The translations under genes were made by a program, and so were the position numbers. Under the pieces are notes generated by a model that was not told the origin of the DNA, did not search any database, and saw only the letters and a program-made list of their open reading frames with translations. A stretch of DNA of 39,439 nt from a virus. The DNA is taken from IMG/VR virus record IMGVR_UViG_3300037882_001111, positions 1 to 39,439 of that record; one strand, 5' to 3'. Numbering within the stretch: the stretch's first letter is position 1; each line of letters starts with the position of its first letter. This document shows, in pieces, positions 9,700 to 19,860 of this stretch.

Positions 9700-9986
9700 T
9701 GCCATTTAAGAATTATCCCGATTTATCTGCGTTAGGCGACAAGCAATCAGTGCGTGAGATTTTTAACGCACGCCGTGATGACCAGATTGTGATTGAGCAA
9801 CTAGAAAAGGGCAAATATCAAGGCCGTTATCGCACAGGGCAACGCGCAGTTCCGACTAGTAATAGTGATGTTGCGGTGACAGATTTTGTAGGAGATGTCT
9901 TAAATGACGCAACATATCGCTATGAGTTATTGGATATTTCTGGTACAAGTAAATGGAATAGAACTGCCTTAAATGTGGCGTGGTAG
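9699..9986 (+). CDS. Small hypothetical virion-region protein
   Basis: A 95-residue protein whose ATG overlaps the nozzle stop (TAATG). It has a helical charged first half (REIFNARRDDQIVIEQLEKG) and a Trp-containing C-terminus. No membrane segment, cysteine pair or catalytic motif is visible. Its size and its place between nozzle and ejection proteins suggest a small tail-completion or chaperone protein. I do not recognise the family. Confidence 0.5.
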   Translation: MPFKNYPDLSALGDKQSVREIFNARRDDQIVIEQLEKGKYQGRYRTGQRAVPTSNSDVAVTDFVGDVLNDATYRYELLDISGTSKWNRTALNVAW

Positions 9987-9995
9987 AGGGGTTTT

Positions 9996-10871
9996 ATGGG
10001 TATAATTGATACAATAGGCAGTTTTTTAGGTGATATATCACTTGATAAAGTAGGTACTGCGCTAGATATTGGTTCAAAAGTAGCGGGTGCTTTTGGTCAA
10101 GCTAAAGGCGGCACAACTTCTACGCCTAGCCAAGTCGCTGGCTATGCTGGGCTTCCGCCAGAGGTTCAAAAGTACCTTATGGATAGCGTATTGCCACAGA
10201 TTCAAGCACAAGCAACTGCCCCGCGTGTAAGTGTTCCTTTCCGCCGCGCTGATGCAACGGATTACGACCCTATCTTTGGAAGTAAGGCGCGAGTGGCATT
10301 ACAGGATTATTATGACCGCAAGGCGGTGGGGGATGAGGCTACAAAAGCAGAAACGGCTAAGGAAGCAGCAAAAGCAGAAAAAGCAATAGCTCCTGCAAAT
10401 AGTAGTGCACAACTTGCAGCTACTATGCAGCGCCTTCGTATGCTTGGTGGTAATCCTGAAACAGATATGTCTGCGGATGCAAAGGCGTATCGTCAAAACC
10501 TTCATGATTTAATGGTTATGAAAGATATGGATGGATATAAGAACGAATATACAGGAGGCGTGTTTGATCTTACTGATTATCTTAACAACATGAACACTGC
10601 ATTGGATGAACGCGCAATGATGGGTAACGGCGGTGGCATTGTTGATTATTCAACCCCTGCATATACCAAAGCTACAAACGCATATAGCCAGCAACGTGAC
10701 AATGCGCTTCGTAGGCCAAAAGAGATGGATTTAATTGCTCCTTTAGTTGCTGCTGCAATTACAGGCGGTGTTGGGTTGTGGGGCGCTCCTGCCGCCGCTA
10801 GTAGCTTGGTGGGCGCGGGTAAGGCAGCAAGCACAGCACTTGGCTTAGGCCAAAGATTGGCAGGTAAGTAA
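9996..10871 (+). CDS. Internal virion (ejection-type) protein 1
   Basis: A 291-residue protein. The N-terminal amphipathic stretch (MGIIDTIGSFLGDISLDK) is typical of phage internal virion proteins. A conserved-looking GYAGLPPEVQKYLMDSVLP follows, then a long Ala/Lys coiled coil (about 105-135). Near the C-terminus an Ala/Gly-rich hydrophobic segment (LVAAAITGGVGLWGAPAAAS) could insert into membrane. It is the first of four consecutive ejection-like genes between nozzle and tail-spike genes. In podoviruses such proteins are released before the DNA and form a channel across the envelope. GAGGGG precedes the start. Confidence 0.65.
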   Translation: MGIIDTIGSFLGDISLDKVGTALDIGSKVAGAFGQAKGGTTSTPSQVAGYAGLPPEVQKYLMDSVLPQIQAQATAPRVSVPFRRADATDYDPIFGSKARVALQDYYDRKAVGDEATKAETAKEAAKAEKAIAPANSSAQLAATMQRLRMLGGNPETDMSADAKAYRQNLHDLMVMKDMDGYKNEYTGGVFDLTDYLNNMNTALDERAMMGNGGGIVDYSTPAYTKATNAYSQQRDNALRRPKEMDLIAPLVAAAITGGVGLWGAPAAASSLVGAGKAASTALGLGQRLAGK

Positions 10872-15721: not shown

Positions 15722-16051
15722 ATGAGTACAAATTTTACACAATCTACTCCGCCTAACGCTACCAATGCCATTCTCATTGAGAATCGCACAGGCTTTCAAT
15801 TGACCGCTGACACCAGCGCTACATCACAGCAAACTGCTACTCTTGAAGGCGGAATGTATGATGTTATTTCAGATGCGGCTGCGTTTATTAAAGTAGCACC
15901 TACAGCCACAACTATTGTTACTAGCGGCGCAGGTATTAACTACCCTATAGTTGCTAATACGCCTGTAACAGTTGCGGTTTCTAATGGCAATAAAATTGGT
16001 GCGAAAACAACGACAGGGACGGCAACCGTTAGCATTCATCGGGTGGGATAA
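15722..16051 (+). CDS. Small beta-rich virion protein
   Basis: A 109-residue protein rich in Thr, Ala, Val and Asn, with alternating strand pattern and no Cys. GGAGA precedes ATG 15722, and its stop overlaps the next ATG (TAATG). This suggests co-production with the SGNH tail protein that follows. It may be an anchor or cap for that appendage. I do not recognise a family. Confidence 0.5.
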   Translation: MSTNFTQSTPPNATNAILIENRTGFQLTADTSATSQQTATLEGGMYDVISDAAAFIKVAPTATTIVTSGAGINYPIVANTPVTVAVSNGNKIGAKTTTGTATVSIHRVG

Positions 16052-17298
16052 TGAAAAATTATTCAGGTGGAAGAATTAGAGGTAGGGGGAGAGGTCACTA
16101 TTCATTGAATAATGACCCTAGAGCCGCGCAAGCTTTTCTTGAAGGTGATTCAATTACCTCGCAAAGCACTACAGGCTCTACGGTATTTAATTCTATTGGT
16201 TACATTAACGCTATCAATGCAGTGAGTTATAACCGCTTTCCTTATTTGATAGGGGAAAACTACGGTGTTGGCGGCGGCACACTTGACACCATGAATACCG
16301 ATAAAACCTCACTTGCTGGGGCTACTGGTAAAATCCTATTTTTTATGGGTGGCACAAACGATGTAGGTGTTGCAACTCCCAACCTTGCAACTATGCAATC
16401 TAATTTTACTAGCATTAAAAATTATGTTCTTGGTACGCTTGGTAAGTGGATGGTTGCATTTACTATCTTGCCACGCACTCAGGATTTAGGCGTTCCTCTT
16501 ACTGGCTTGCAATTAACGGCATTGCTTGGCTTTAACACATGGTTAAAAGCACAACATAATCCAAGCGCAGGTTTTTTTGTTGTGGACGGTTATGCTGCAT
16601 TATGCAGTGCATTAGATACGCCTAATCCCGCTTATTTCAAAGATGAAACAGGCAAGCTATTGCACCCTAATCCTGCTGGCGCAATTCAATTAGGCAAAAC
16701 AGCGTGGACGCAATTACAAAGTTTTGGATTTATCTCTGGAAGTCGCCCTAGTAATACGGCTGGCAATATCTTTACGTTTGGTGCAATGACAGGAAGCGGA
16801 GGCACTGCCTCTACCAATGCCAGTGGTACAGTGGCAACAGGCCTAACCGTTTCAGGTTCAGGCGGTACTCAATCGCGTGTTTGCTCAGTTATTGCTACAG
16901 GCCAGCGCGTTGTGTGGAGTCCGATTTCTGGAGATGGCGCTGCGGCTAACGTGCGAGTGGCTGCTACAAGCAATATCACCACAGGGTATTCAATAGGTGA
17001 TACGGTTTATGGCTGGGCAGAAGTGCTGATAAACAATGCTTTGCGTATGGATGGGCCATATATGCAGCTTACGGAAAATGGTACGCCGTCTACTGCTTAT
17101 ATTGGATTTAATAAAGCAGGGGCAACCACTGGATTTATGCCAAGCGATGCAGGTACTTTATTTATGGTTACGCCGCGTTTTGTTATTCCAGCAACCAATA
17201 CAAGCCTGAAACCTGAAGTGATATGCCAAGCGGAATGCGCTGCAAATGCTGGTATCGTAGACTTCACGGTGCTAGGCATGGGAATAGCGAAGGTATAG
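16051..17298 (+). CDS. Tail appendage protein with SGNH/GDSL hydrolase domain
   Basis: A 415-residue protein. A basic Arg/Gly N-terminus (about 1-18) could be the virion anchor. Residues 29-225 are an SGNH hydrolase: block I FLEGDSIT with Ser34, block II around GVGGG (72-76), block III GGTND with Asn103, and block V LLHPN with His205. The usual DxxH spacing is altered. The nearest acidic residues are Asp198-Glu199 in KDETGKLLH, seven and six residues before the His. The C-terminal 190 residues form Thr/Gly/Ser beta structure. Such domains on phage tails commonly deacetylate host surface polysaccharide. The substrate here is unknown. Confidence 0.75.
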   Translation: MKNYSGGRIRGRGRGHYSLNNDPRAAQAFLEGDSITSQSTTGSTVFNSIGYINAINAVSYNRFPYLIGENYGVGGGTLDTMNTDKTSLAGATGKILFFMGGTNDVGVATPNLATMQSNFTSIKNYVLGTLGKWMVAFTILPRTQDLGVPLTGLQLTALLGFNTWLKAQHNPSAGFFVVDGYAALCSALDTPNPAYFKDETGKLLHPNPAGAIQLGKTAWTQLQSFGFISGSRPSNTAGNIFTFGAMTGSGGTASTNASGTVATGLTVSGSGGTQSRVCSVIATGQRVVWSPISGDGAAANVRVAATSNITTGYSIGDTVYGWAEVLINNALRMDGPYMQLTENGTPSTAYIGFNKAGATTGFMPSDAGTLFMVTPRFVIPATNTSLKPEVICQAECAANAGIVDFTVLGMGIAKV

Positions 17299-17745: not shown

Positions 17746-17924
17746 ATTTTAATCCAGTCGAGCGCAGTTTATTTCTTGATAAGGCAATCACTAACGAATA
17801 CGCAAAAGAGGAGCTTGGCCGTTTGATGCGTCATCGCTCAAAGCTTATGGCTAATAACTGGAGTGTGCCGCTTTCTCTTAACGAAAAAATCCTGAAATAT
17901 AAAACGCAGTTGGGGTTGGTATGA
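17742..17924 (+). CDS. Small hypothetical protein in lysis cassette
   Basis: A 60-residue soluble, helical, charged protein, containing EYAKEELGRLMRHRSKLMAN. It overlaps both neighbours by four bases (ATGA). This tight coupling with membrane and DUF5675 genes supports real translation. There is no membrane segment, cysteine or catalytic motif. The function is unknown. Confidence 0.5.
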   Translation: MNFNPVERSLFLDKAITNEYAKEELGRLMRHRSKLMANNWSVPLSLNEKILKYKTQLGLV

Positions 17925-18325
17925 CAACACTTTACCTCCACAGATTCCGCCAAGATGCACAAGGCACTTTTGGTATTATGACGGTGAACAATCAGCAATT
18001 ATGCGTAACGTGCGAAGATCCTTGGAACGGCAATAAAAACAATATCTCCTGCATACCTGAAGGCGTTTATAAAGTGCTACGCCGTGAGTCGCCTAAGTAT
18101 AAGCACCACTGGCACGTTCAAAATGTTCCTAGTCGCTCCTTAATCCTGATCCACAACGGCAACACCACAAACGATACAGAAGGCTGCATTTTGGTGGGTG
18201 AGTCACTGGCAACCTCACAGCTTGGCAAGCAAGCAATTACCAACTCTCTAAAAACAATGGCGCGGTTACGCAAAACGCTGCCTAATGAATTTACGCTAAT
18301 TATTTCAAACCCTGTGAAAGGATAA
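17921..18325 (+). CDS. DUF5675 family protein, candidate cell-wall enzyme
   Basis: A 134-residue protein without a signal peptide. The family pattern is visible: CIPEGVYKVLRRESPKY (44-60), a tryptophan strand, VPSRSLILIHNGNTTNDTEG (69-88) and Cys89 in GCILVG. His78 and Cys89 in an IH-N-G-N-x(6)-GCI arrangement recall the His...Cys active site of YkuD L,D-transpeptidases. DUF5675 genes often sit beside holins, and this one lies three genes before the spanins. No separate soluble endolysin is present, so this protein may do that job. Family membership is fairly sure; catalytic activity is inference. Confidence 0.7.
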   Translation: MTTLYLHRFRQDAQGTFGIMTVNNQQLCVTCEDPWNGNKNNISCIPEGVYKVLRRESPKYKHHWHVQNVPSRSLILIHNGNTTNDTEGCILVGESLATSQLGKQAITNSLKTMARLRKTLPNEFTLIISNPVKG

Positions 18326-18502: not shown

Positions 18503-18733
18503 ATGCTAGAATCACTTTTTACGCTTTTTATTTTTGCCACTGTGATTGTCTGGTACATTTCCAACGAATGGGTGAAATCTGAAAAGAAAGAAGCTGTTTT
18601 AGATGATGACTATAACGAACTGATAGAGGCCAGCCGCAATGACAAAAAAGCAAAAGACAATGAGTCGGCTATCCGTAACGATTATGCTACTGGCAAGCCT
18701 CGCAGGATGTCAGGAAAGTATGACATCGACTAA
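18503..18733 (+). CDS. i-spanin (Rz-like inner-membrane spanin)
   Basis: A 76-residue protein with an N-terminal membrane anchor (residues 3-20, ESLFTLFIFATVIVWYIS) and a charged helical periplasmic part. The o-spanin gene starts inside it in the +1 frame at 18639 and continues beyond its stop. This is the classic overlapping Rz/Rz1 arrangement. Together the pair would fuse inner and outer membranes at the last step of lysis in a Gram-negative host. The periplasmic domain is short compared with lambda Rz. Confidence 0.7.
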   Translation: MLESLFTLFIFATVIVWYISNEWVKSEKKEAVLDDDYNELIEASRNDKKAKDNESAIRNDYATGKPRRMSGKYDID

Positions 18734-18839
18734 CTGCGGGTGGGTGAAGCCTATTCCGTTTAGCAAATCATGCCGTGCGGAAGTGCAAGAGGCTATCGAC
18801 GTTCACAATTTTAACTATGATACACTTTGTGGGGAATAA
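18639..18839 (+). CDS. o-spanin (Rz1-like outer-membrane lipoprotein)
   Basis: A 66-residue lipoprotein. It has a basic n-region, a hydrophobic core, and lipobox Leu21-Ala22-Gly23-Cys24. The mature part is 43 residues and carries CGWVKPIPFSKSC near its start and HNFNYDTLC near its end. That Cys-Trp-x-(K/R)-Pro-Ile motif with a closing 'HN......C' is common in small phage o-spanin-like lipoproteins. It begins in a different frame within the i-spanin gene. An internal ATG at 18660 is a possible alternative start. Confidence 0.75.
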   Translation: MTKKQKTMSRLSVTIMLLASLAGCQESMTSTNCGWVKPIPFSKSCRAEVQEAIDVHNFNYDTLCGE

Positions 18840-18842
18840 ATA

Positions 18843-18965
18843 ATGAAAGCACTTTACGTTCCATTTATCGCGCTTGCTATGGCCGCTCTGGTGGCTTGTG
18901 CTATCGTTACTCAAGCTCGCGCCGATGAGCATGGCGATACTGGCGGTGGGTTTAAGGATAAATAG
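18843..18965 (+). CDS. Tiny exported peptide
   Basis: A 40-residue product with a typical signal sequence: MK, then a hydrophobic core (about 3-22), then TQARA just before DEHGD. Predicted cleavage after Ala28 would leave a 12-residue acidic, Gly-rich peptide; retention as a membrane anchor is also possible. GGGGAAT lies seven bases before ATG. It is the last gene of the rightward operon, directly after the o-spanin. The function is unknown. A lysis accessory or superinfection-exclusion peptide is possible, but nothing proves it. Confidence 0.5.
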   Translation: MKALYVPFIALAMAALVACAIVTQARADEHGDTGGGFKDK

Positions 18966-19032
18966 GTTTAATTTTATACCTATTTGAACGTATTATGTAG
19001 TTATCCGCCTATTGCGTGCGGTAGGTTCTAAG

Positions 19033-19061
19033 GTCATCCTTCGGGGTGGCTTCAGCTTTTT
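19033..19061 (+). terminator. Candidate rightward terminator after the lysis operon
   Basis: A 7-bp stem with a TTCG loop (19033-19050, two G-T wobbles) is followed after six bases by TTTTT. It lies 68 bases after the last rightward stop. A second, longer imperfect stem (19064-19111) begins right after it. The gap between stem and T-run makes this only a fair intrinsic terminator. Confidence 0.4.
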
Positions 19062-19063
19062 AC

Positions 19064-19318
19064 GAAGGGAAAGAGGGGGTTAGTTTTGAACACAGATCCC
19101 CTCTCTCCTTCCCCCACTCCGCCCATTAACTAAACTAATGGAGGAATCTATAAGCCATACCATAAATACTGCGTAGCGGGATGAGGGTATGGCACACCTT
19201 GCGGCGTGTGATAAAAGGCTCACCACAGTCGGGTAATCTTATCTAGCTTGCGCTGCCCTAGGGCATATTCGATAAGCAAAAGCCTTAATTCTATGCCCTA
19301 CTCCTATACGTCTATAGG
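19064..19318. ncRNA. Candidate structured noncoding RNA, strand unknown
   Basis: There is no open reading frame, but inverted repeats are dense. An imperfect 14-bp hairpin occupies 19064-19111 (GAAGG...AGAGGGGGT with ATCCCCTCT...CCTTC). GCCATACC (19154-19161) pairs with GGTATGGC (19186-19193), and CACAC (19193-19197) with GTGTG (19206-19210). A nested set is AAGGCT/AGCCTT (19215/19281), CTTATC/GATAAG (19238/19271) and a 12-base palindrome (19254-19265). CCTATA/TATAGG forms a hairpin at 19303-19318. A competing 9-bp pairing, TAGGGCATA (19259-19267) with TATGCCCTA (19292-19300), would break the nested set. I match it to no known RNA class. Confidence 0.4.
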
Positions 19319-19379
19319 CACTCACTGGTCAATTCCAGATTGCAGCATAATCGGGAGAAAAGAGGCTACATGGGCGACT

Positions 19380-19407
19380 TTGTGATTATATAAAACTAAA
19401 GTATAAT
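19380..19407 (+). promoter_or_regulatory. Candidate sigma70-like promoter, rightward
   Basis: TTGTGA (19380-19385) and a perfect TATAAT (19402-19407) are separated by 16 bases. A transcript would start near 19414, immediately before the hairpin at 19418-19444, so its target is unclear. It may be a fortuitous match in AT-rich DNA. Confidence 0.3.
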
Positions 19408-19417
19408 GTAAATAAAA

Positions 19418-19444
19418 AACGCCGTTACCGTGAATAACGGCGTT
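19418..19444 (-). terminator. Second leftward intrinsic terminator
   Basis: A perfect 10-bp stem, AACGCCGTTA (19418-19427) with TAACGGCGTT (19435-19444) and a 7-base loop, is followed in the leftward direction by a T-rich run (A's at 19411-19419 on the + strand). It would catch readthrough from the leftward operon, or end an RNA that starts between the two terminators. Confidence 0.6.
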
Positions 19445-19530
19445 CTTATCAATTTAATTTAGAAAGGAATCGATTGTTAGAAGCAACCGAAAGAAGCATG
19501 AATACTAATTACTTGTTAAGTACATATAAC

Positions 19531-19558
19531 AAAAAAATACCCCCGCGTCAAGCAGGGG
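19531..19558 (-). terminator. Main leftward intrinsic terminator
   Basis: In the leftward direction the stem CCCCTGC/GCGGGGG (one G-T pair, 5-base loop) is followed by TATTTTTTT. It lies 60 bases after the stop of the last leftward gene (19618). This is the expected end of the leftward transcript. Confidence 0.75.
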
Positions 19559-19617
19559 TTAAGTTAGGAGGTTACCAATCAAGGAAACTTACAGCGGTTA
19601 TTCGCTGCCAGTAAAAT

Positions 19618-19860
19618 TTAGCGCTTTTGTTTCTTTTTGTCAATCCTTGTAAATGGCTTCATTCCTCCTGCTGTGCAAATATATAAAATTTTAGTGTTTA
19701 CAATGTTTGGATATTGCATCCAGCATATCGTGCAGGGTTCGTCCGTGTGATAATGAGGGTCTTTCACTTCCGCTGTTTCATCTGAATATCCACAATGAGC
19801 GCATGGTTTTCCTTTGTGATTTAGAAAATAGTTACATCGTTGGCAAAATATCGTCTTCAT
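19618..19860 (-). CDS. Zinc-ribbon miniprotein, last gene of the leftward unit
   Basis: An 80-residue protein with C-x2-C pairs FCQRCN and CAHCG near the start and a further CTICW later, enough for one or two zinc sites. The C-terminus is basic (RIDKKKQKR). I chose ATG 19860, which has GAGAGG seven bases upstream; an upstream in-frame start would lie inside the previous gene. It overlaps that gene (19832-20002) by 29 bases in another frame, so translation is probably coupled. The function is unknown. Confidence 0.6.
   Translation of the reverse strand: MKTIFCQRCNYFLNHKGKPCAHCGYSDETAEVKDPHYHTDEPCTICWMQYPNIVNTKILYICTAGGMKPFTRIDKKKQKR

Follow-up and report, generated by a model that had tools for sequence, protein, structure and literature searches.

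What is encoded in the gap where the two gene arms of a tailed phage run towards each other? The DNA analysed here (the window) is a 39,439-base IMG/VR virus record, with terminase, portal and head genes on the plus strand and replication genes on the minus strand. The late genes include one whose protein matches the phage lipase family phrog_6102 (16051-17298, E 5.6e-23), and a spanin-like lysis gene lies at 18639-18839. The two convergent arms meet in the gap studied, and the composition skew flips sign there. An earlier note had described 19064-19318 as a gene-free region and a candidate noncoding RNA that matched no nameable class. This description stands: no ORF of at least 60 aa is found between 18839 and 19618, and no Rfam family reached its gathering threshold anywhere in the window. 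The top Rfam match on 18800-19650 at E 10, RefA9, scored 35.3 bits against a cut-off of 49, fell on the early-gene terminator and was discarded. A DNA similarity search of the region against the phages collection matched nothing. Homologue searches with the protein at 16051-17298 gave no relatives, and those with the protein at 17921-18325 gave a single distant contig, without a match to the DNA of the region. The useful relative came from a search with the portal protein, namely contig G003 (L010), whose portal is 66% identical.

All the stems named in the earlier note are present in the sequence. AAGGCT / AGCCTT lies at 19215-19220 / 19281-19286, CTTATC / GATAAG at 19238-19243 / 19271-19276 and the 12-base palindrome TGCCCTAGGGCA at 19254-19265; the proposed competing pairing, TAGGGCATA/TATGCCCTA (19259-19267/19292-19300), is an exact 9-bp inverted repeat. 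A 20-nt inverted repeat of 75% spans 19068-19108, and the inverted repeat GCCATACC/GGTATGGC spans 19154-19193. Folding of the 255-nt stretch gave z -2.71 on the plus strand (2/200 dinucleotide shuffles as good) and z -3.39 on the minus strand (0/200); judged from these shuffle scores, the stretch as a whole is structured beyond chance, somewhat more strongly on the minus strand. On the plus strand, z was -4.14 for 18960-19460 and -0.90 for 19140-19330 (33/200 shuffles as good, which is not unusual), so the nested set is unremarkable by energy alone. Outside the conserved RNA described below, the late arm has a terminator-like UUCG hairpin on the plus strand (19031-19052), beside which lies a strong inverted repeat of the GGAGAG type (19068-19108).

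The relative keeps two blocks of the window, 19182-19214 at 91% identity and 19296-19341 at 87%; the 44-column block common to window and relative scores 61 against a shuffle maximum of 29. The two conserved blocks are separated by 81 bases in the window and by just a few in the relative. This insert (19215..19295, read on the minus strand) carries the nested stems and the palindrome, which are thus not a conserved element. The earlier note had named homologous regions without conserved pairing as a refutation; by this test the nested stems fail, and the helices that flank them pass and covary. The RNA candidate itself holds, with other limits than those first given: the conserved RNA lies on the minus strand, starts near 19378, outside 19064-19318, and is common to other phages.

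On the minus strand, window and relative present the same order of elements: the terminator of the leftward arm, a promoter-like site, the core, a CACAC element and a terminator-like hairpin. The intrinsic terminator of the leftward gene arm (19415..19447, minus strand, a 15-pair stem followed by a T tail) lies just upstream of a sigma-70-like promoter, TTTACA-16-TATAAT (19385..19412, minus strand), which agrees with the consensus at 11/12 positions, a consensus match and not proof; promoter-like sites in the region number 2 against a shuffle mean of 1.2. The relative has a promoter-like site at the same place (TTGCAA-16-TATGAT). From promoter to terminator-like hairpin, the putative small RNA would cover 19150..19378 on the minus strand, with approximate ends (19146-19382 was folded).

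Four minus-strand helices form its core. P1 (19295..19375) pairs GCCC (19375-19372) with GGGC (19298-19295), and it covaries among members of the family described below. P2 (19342..19369) pairs GUAGC (19369-19365) with GCUGC (19346-19342) across an 18-base loop, GUAGC-CUCUUUUCUCCCGAUUAU-GCUGC, with a pair probability of 0.96-0.98. P3 is CUGG-AAUUGA-CCAG (19325..19338, 0.97-1.0) and P4 is CCUAUA-GACG-UAUAGG (19303..19318, 0.95-1.0). In the relative, P3 becomes UCUG/CAGA, three pairs being altered on both sides. On the far side of the insert, the CACACGCCGCAAGGUGUG hairpin element (19193..19210, minus strand) belongs to a 33-base block at 91% identity and is kept in the relative; its CACAC/GUGUG pairing is disfavoured in the window fold (0.00-0.01). 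The terminator-like hairpin GCCAUACC/GGUAUGGC (19154..19193, minus strand, 0.71-1.0) changes in the relative from GCCATACC/GGTATGGC to GCCGCACC/GGTGCGGC by two compensatory changes. A T-rich tail then follows in the relative, whereas the tail in the window is T-poor and weaker, and terminator scans listed neither hairpin.

P1 has a pair probability of 0.98-1.0 in the nascent core, and its first GGGC has one of 0.0 in the full-length RNA. There, the 9-bp helix takes this GGGC (0.86-1.0) and the 5' GCCC is drawn with a second GGGC copy (19258-19255, minus strand), a possible P1 partner. The competing 9-bp pairing therefore does compete, its rival being P1, although in the full-length fold the second GGGC can replace the partner that P1 loses. 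No gene lies downstream on the minus strand for a switch to control. From promoter, helices and hairpin, we infer that the convergent gap may encode, on its minus strand, a small RNA that stands alone; taken jointly with the rest of our best explanation, this is held at somewhat less than an even chance.

The core is also found among the tRNA genes of other phages. An exact scan with the 18-base P4 string matched G003 and contig L013, where it lies in the 119 bases that separate a tRNA-Asp from a tRNA-Arg gene, on the strand of the tRNAs. Window and L013 share a 44-column P3-P4 block that scores 66; the highest score among 1000 shuffles was 28. A scan with the P3 string TCTGGAATTNACCAGTGA returned 25 viral contigs, 13 of them noncoding (no frame of 100 aa across the motif) and 12 coding. 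Eleven of the 13 noncoding contigs, including L013, carry the string in tRNA arrays on the tRNA strand, as does none of the 12 coding ones; these 11 contain near-identical copies (L022/L024/L032, likewise L036/L040). In genome_contigs, the string occurs at 29 places, 0/29 in tRNA arrays and 27/29 within frames of at least 100 aa. It is present, unannotated, just after tRNA-Asn and tRNA-Gln in Agrobacterium phage OLIVR1. P4 of L030 combines an identical GACG loop with another stem (ACCAAA/UUUGGU). Judged from sequence, the family core is P1[P2][P3 CUGGAAUUNACCAG]UGA[P4]P1', and most members lie between the tRNA genes of phage arrays, on the tRNA strand. The window has the P3-P4 core sequence and the order of this family, and with zero tRNA genes it lies outside any array.

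Two noncoding stretches of phage DNA in whose vicinity no tRNA was found also hold the P3 string (L033 7214-7231 and L035 5611-5628); they are either divergent members or chance matches and were left out of the member count. Several other matches were rejected. That in Bacillus phage phiBsKO1-1 is without the CUGG arm, that in E. coli clone EC22.5-2 is outside the sRNA listed there and resembles the end of a coding region, those in T4-type and FelixO1-type phages fall in tail genes annotated as coding, and L011 has 18 bases in common and not the remainder.

We then compared pairing across the family with a covariance model (R1) built from four of the 13 or more array members. Eight array members aligned to R1 have 98.6% of their cells paired, and 6/19 pairs are changed on both sides (a count as high in 1/500 shuffles). 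None of 500 shuffles reached their covariation score, and with slid partners the paired share is 20-34% of cells. MAFFT misaligned P4 of divergent members, and P4 and the window were therefore compared by hand. This comparison, which added the window, its relative and OLIVR1 where readable and whose counts depend on the analyst's reading, gave paired cells of 40/40 for P1, 27/27 for inner P2, 23/24 for outer P2, 44/44 for P3 and 50/50 for P4, and as many as three types of pair at one position. The window scored 17.4 bits with R1, inside the range of coding loci that merely hold the P3 string (up to 22.7 for L057) and not above background; its membership is therefore argued from the 44-column block and from the helix order, not from the model score. 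The conserved phage RNA is real, lies on the strand opposite to the first reading and belongs to a family absent from Rfam.

At P2, the array relatives resemble a known RNA. Rfam at a loose threshold placed abiF RNA on P2 of L027 (16.2 bits), and the abiF model RF03085 matched 8/14 phage records, at P2 only, with 14-21 bits and E 0.001-0.1, below its 37-bit cut-off. P2 of the array relatives and abiF RNA both have an outer stem, an A, an inner 3-bp stem, a CUCUC...GA loop and a 3' bulge of about five bases, which reads CAACA in the phage array relatives and CAAAU in bacteria. At the corresponding hairpin, bacterial L105 has CGC-CUCUCAACGAU-GCG and phage L028 has CGC-CUCUCAACGAA-GCG. The P2 of the window occupies the position of this hairpin. 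With RF03085 at E 10, no match was found in the window, G003, L013, OLIVR1, L033 or L035.

A second model (R2) was built from six phage P2 hairpins only; their ends were set after the abiF resemblance had been noticed, while the sequences were found without it. The bacterial abiF set came from the family of a Prevotellaceae genome, in which 28/247 genomes match, 24 over the cut-off. On 25 bacterial abiF loci, the top 22 rows of R2 (21 loci) are abiF sites, ahead of any off-target match; L107 was found lower down, and L109, L110 and L115 were missed. The P2 of the window was not recognised by R2, whose best score at the locus was -0.4 bits, away from P2, and the P2 of L013 is likewise unrecognised as abiF. 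For 23 chosen phage and bacterial hairpins (a set that left out phage L013, L027, L037, L130, L136, L138, L145 and L146 and 17/25 bacterial loci), the covariation score was reached in 0/500 shuffles, and the count of double-changed pairs showed no excess (268/500 shuffles as high).

The pattern GCCTCTCN{2,12}GAAGCGCAACA gave 31 matches in viral contigs, of which 14 fall in noncoding DNA of tRNA-rich loci. The long form accounts for six of these, and the other eight stand alone (L072, L127, L128, L130, L133, L136, L138, L140). Not covered by the pattern, the outer stems show complementarity over 7-8 bp in L072, L121, L127, L128, L133, L137 and L140 and are short or absent in L130, L136 and L138. 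Hairpins resembling abiF also occur outside arrays (L121, L137, L144-L146), with RF03085 scores below the cut-off for L145 (28.6) and L137 (26.9). In Rhizobium phage RHEph21, an abiF-like hairpin beside tRNA-Asn reaches 38.0 bits, above the RF03085 cut-off, and in DSS3_MAL1 (L143, 1499-2972) such a hairpin shares one tRNA array with a tmRNA and a GOLLD RNA (160.5 bits).

The rnaC and rnaD of T4, which have no known function, are likewise stable RNAs other than tRNAs that sit next to the tRNA genes in a phage cluster. They were set aside as relatives: read by eye, their sequences present no similarity, neither P3/P4 nor an abiF hairpin was seen, and the T4 stretch is unmatched by R1 (E 10) and R2 (E 1).

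The gene for the AbiF toxin does not accompany the phage hairpins in the records searched. Abi_2 (PF07751) had no match in the window record and was found in 0/32 phage or viral records (14, 13 and 5 searched), which include fragments, near-copies and a few non-members such as L125, and for which absence from a record is not absence from the virus. It was present in 4/5 bacterial abiF genomes, with the RNA adjoining it in G055, in G238 and twice in G148. The phage relatives differ from abiF RNA in having no Abi_2 gene in the records searched, in lying in tRNA arrays or alone and, for the long form, in being set within a P1-P3-P4 scaffold; the P2 of the window differs further in that it does not score.

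According to PMC12373285, the abiF-motif RNA RCd22 binds and neutralises the HEPN toxin AbiF both in cis and in trans, and the integrity of its stem is required. The discussion of that article, citing others, adds that an AbiF homodimer with two RNA copies has been solved and that CRISPR-Cas13 descends from AbiF. Phage RNAs that resemble a host defence RNA have precedents. The pseudo-ToxI of phage PhiTE resembles a defence antitoxin whose toxin is absent, and its expanded forms are described as suppressing ToxIN-mediated abortive infection (PMC3475682). In that system, the antitoxin for ToxN is ToxI, a 36-nt pseudoknot present as repeats; here the model is abiF with HEPN toxins, and the function is predicted. 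RNA anti-CRISPRs (Racrs) are likewise solitary phage copies of an RNA element from a host immune system, described in their report as mimicking CRISPR repeats and not an antitoxin (PMC10651486). The lytic, tRNA-rich cyanophage S-CREM1 has an annotated abiF sRNA (51.6 bits), given in the account of that annotation as a database match with no mechanism proposed, and three phage entries in Rfam are mentioned there (PMC9964418). In a search that left most subscription literature outside its reach, we found no publication that deals with the P1-P4 core or with hairpins like abiF inside the tRNA arrays of phages. Two papers in which phage tRNAs are treated as a means of counter-defence (PMC13096335, PMC11555353) were checked for the terms abiF or rnaC/rnaD, which they lack.

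Our best explanation, tentative and a little short of an even chance, is that an orphan abiF-like hairpin, acting as an antidote, forms the basis of this phage RNA family, which probably serves counter-defence, and that the window carries a member with a diverged P2. The computed basis of this explanation comprises structure and covariation, the link to the family, the probable abiF identity of the relatives' P2 and the fact that no Abi_2 was found. From this basis we infer transcription, toxin binding and counter-defence. The RNA would be made during infection and would stand in for the antitoxin by binding a HEPN toxin, either AbiF-type or related, and abortive infection would be blocked once the toxin is bound; P1, P3 and P4 would stabilise the hairpin or contribute contacts. 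By analogy, the surrogate antitoxin would be the simplest role for orphan phage abiF hairpins, since RCd22 neutralises AbiF in trans and PhiTE mimics a type III antitoxin. The case is weaker for the window, which keeps P1, P3 and P4 with a P2 unrecognised as abiF. Because its P2 has diverged, the target, if the mechanism holds, would be a different toxin variant or an unknown one.

The array members are flanked by tRNAs that run in their own direction, and the spacer is about 50-120 bases long in some cases, as would be expected of a housekeeping structured RNA of tRNA arrays (a processing signal, an RNase decoy or a protein-binding spacer) that stands alone in the window's phage and resembles abiF through a common protein-binding fold. 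Such a core may have a role of its own, since the window and L013 retain P1, P3 and P4 without the abiF loop. Nevertheless, we find this improbable: the window is without a tRNA, its RNA has promoter-like and terminator-like elements of its own, and abiF-like hairpins occur outside arrays too. Those same elements, together with the strong multi-helix core and a P2 in which abiF is unrecognisable, would suit a trans-acting regulatory RNA of the phage that acts on another target (a host mRNA or a host protein) and has no relation to a toxin. This is equally improbable in our judgement, as it leaves the abiF motif of the array relatives unexplained. Quite improbable is an ordinary structure of convergent gaps, in which back-to-back terminators or hairpins end or protect both transcripts and no trans-acting RNA is made. 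Terminator-like hairpins do exist for both arms and the position is convergent, but the core, with its paired changes, is common to tRNA-array RNAs of other phages, and a promoter-like site lies inside the gap in both window and relative. The first reading, in which a regulatory RNA of the plus strand alternates between two states, nested stems in one and the 9-bp pairing in the other, was dropped as highly improbable: its alternative pairings exist and the 9-bp helix competes with P1, but its stems lie within the insert missing from a relative that keeps the core, no plus-strand gene follows before the opposing arm, and the conserved promoter-like site and core are on the other strand.

If the surrogate-antitoxin explanation is true, phages would carry ready-made RNA antidotes to AbiF in their tRNA arrays, in the shape of orphan abiF hairpins, and the arrays would gain a second role in counter-defence. 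A broader version, which we regard as somewhat unlikely, is that these arrays also store solitary abiF-type antitoxins against HEPN toxins, beside tRNAs that possibly replace those cut by toxins, and that the window carries the scaffold outside an array, with its own promoter and a P2 loop altered for a different toxin. Covariance models such as those used here could serve to find RNA counter-defence elements that are invisible to protein-based searches.

Further contigs carry other RNAs along with abiF-like hairpins. In two fragments of gut phage clones (L144, MT835849, and L145, MT836731), abiF-like hairpins, of which L145 has two, are followed by a DUF3800-VIII RNA (72-77 bits). Neither an Abi_2 nor a DUF3800 protein was found in these two records, and they possibly hold two orphan RNA antidotes side by side. 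Contig L072, which has a 23-tRNA array with an abiF-like hairpin, also contains a type-P5 twister ribozyme at 9961-10028 (54.8 bits).
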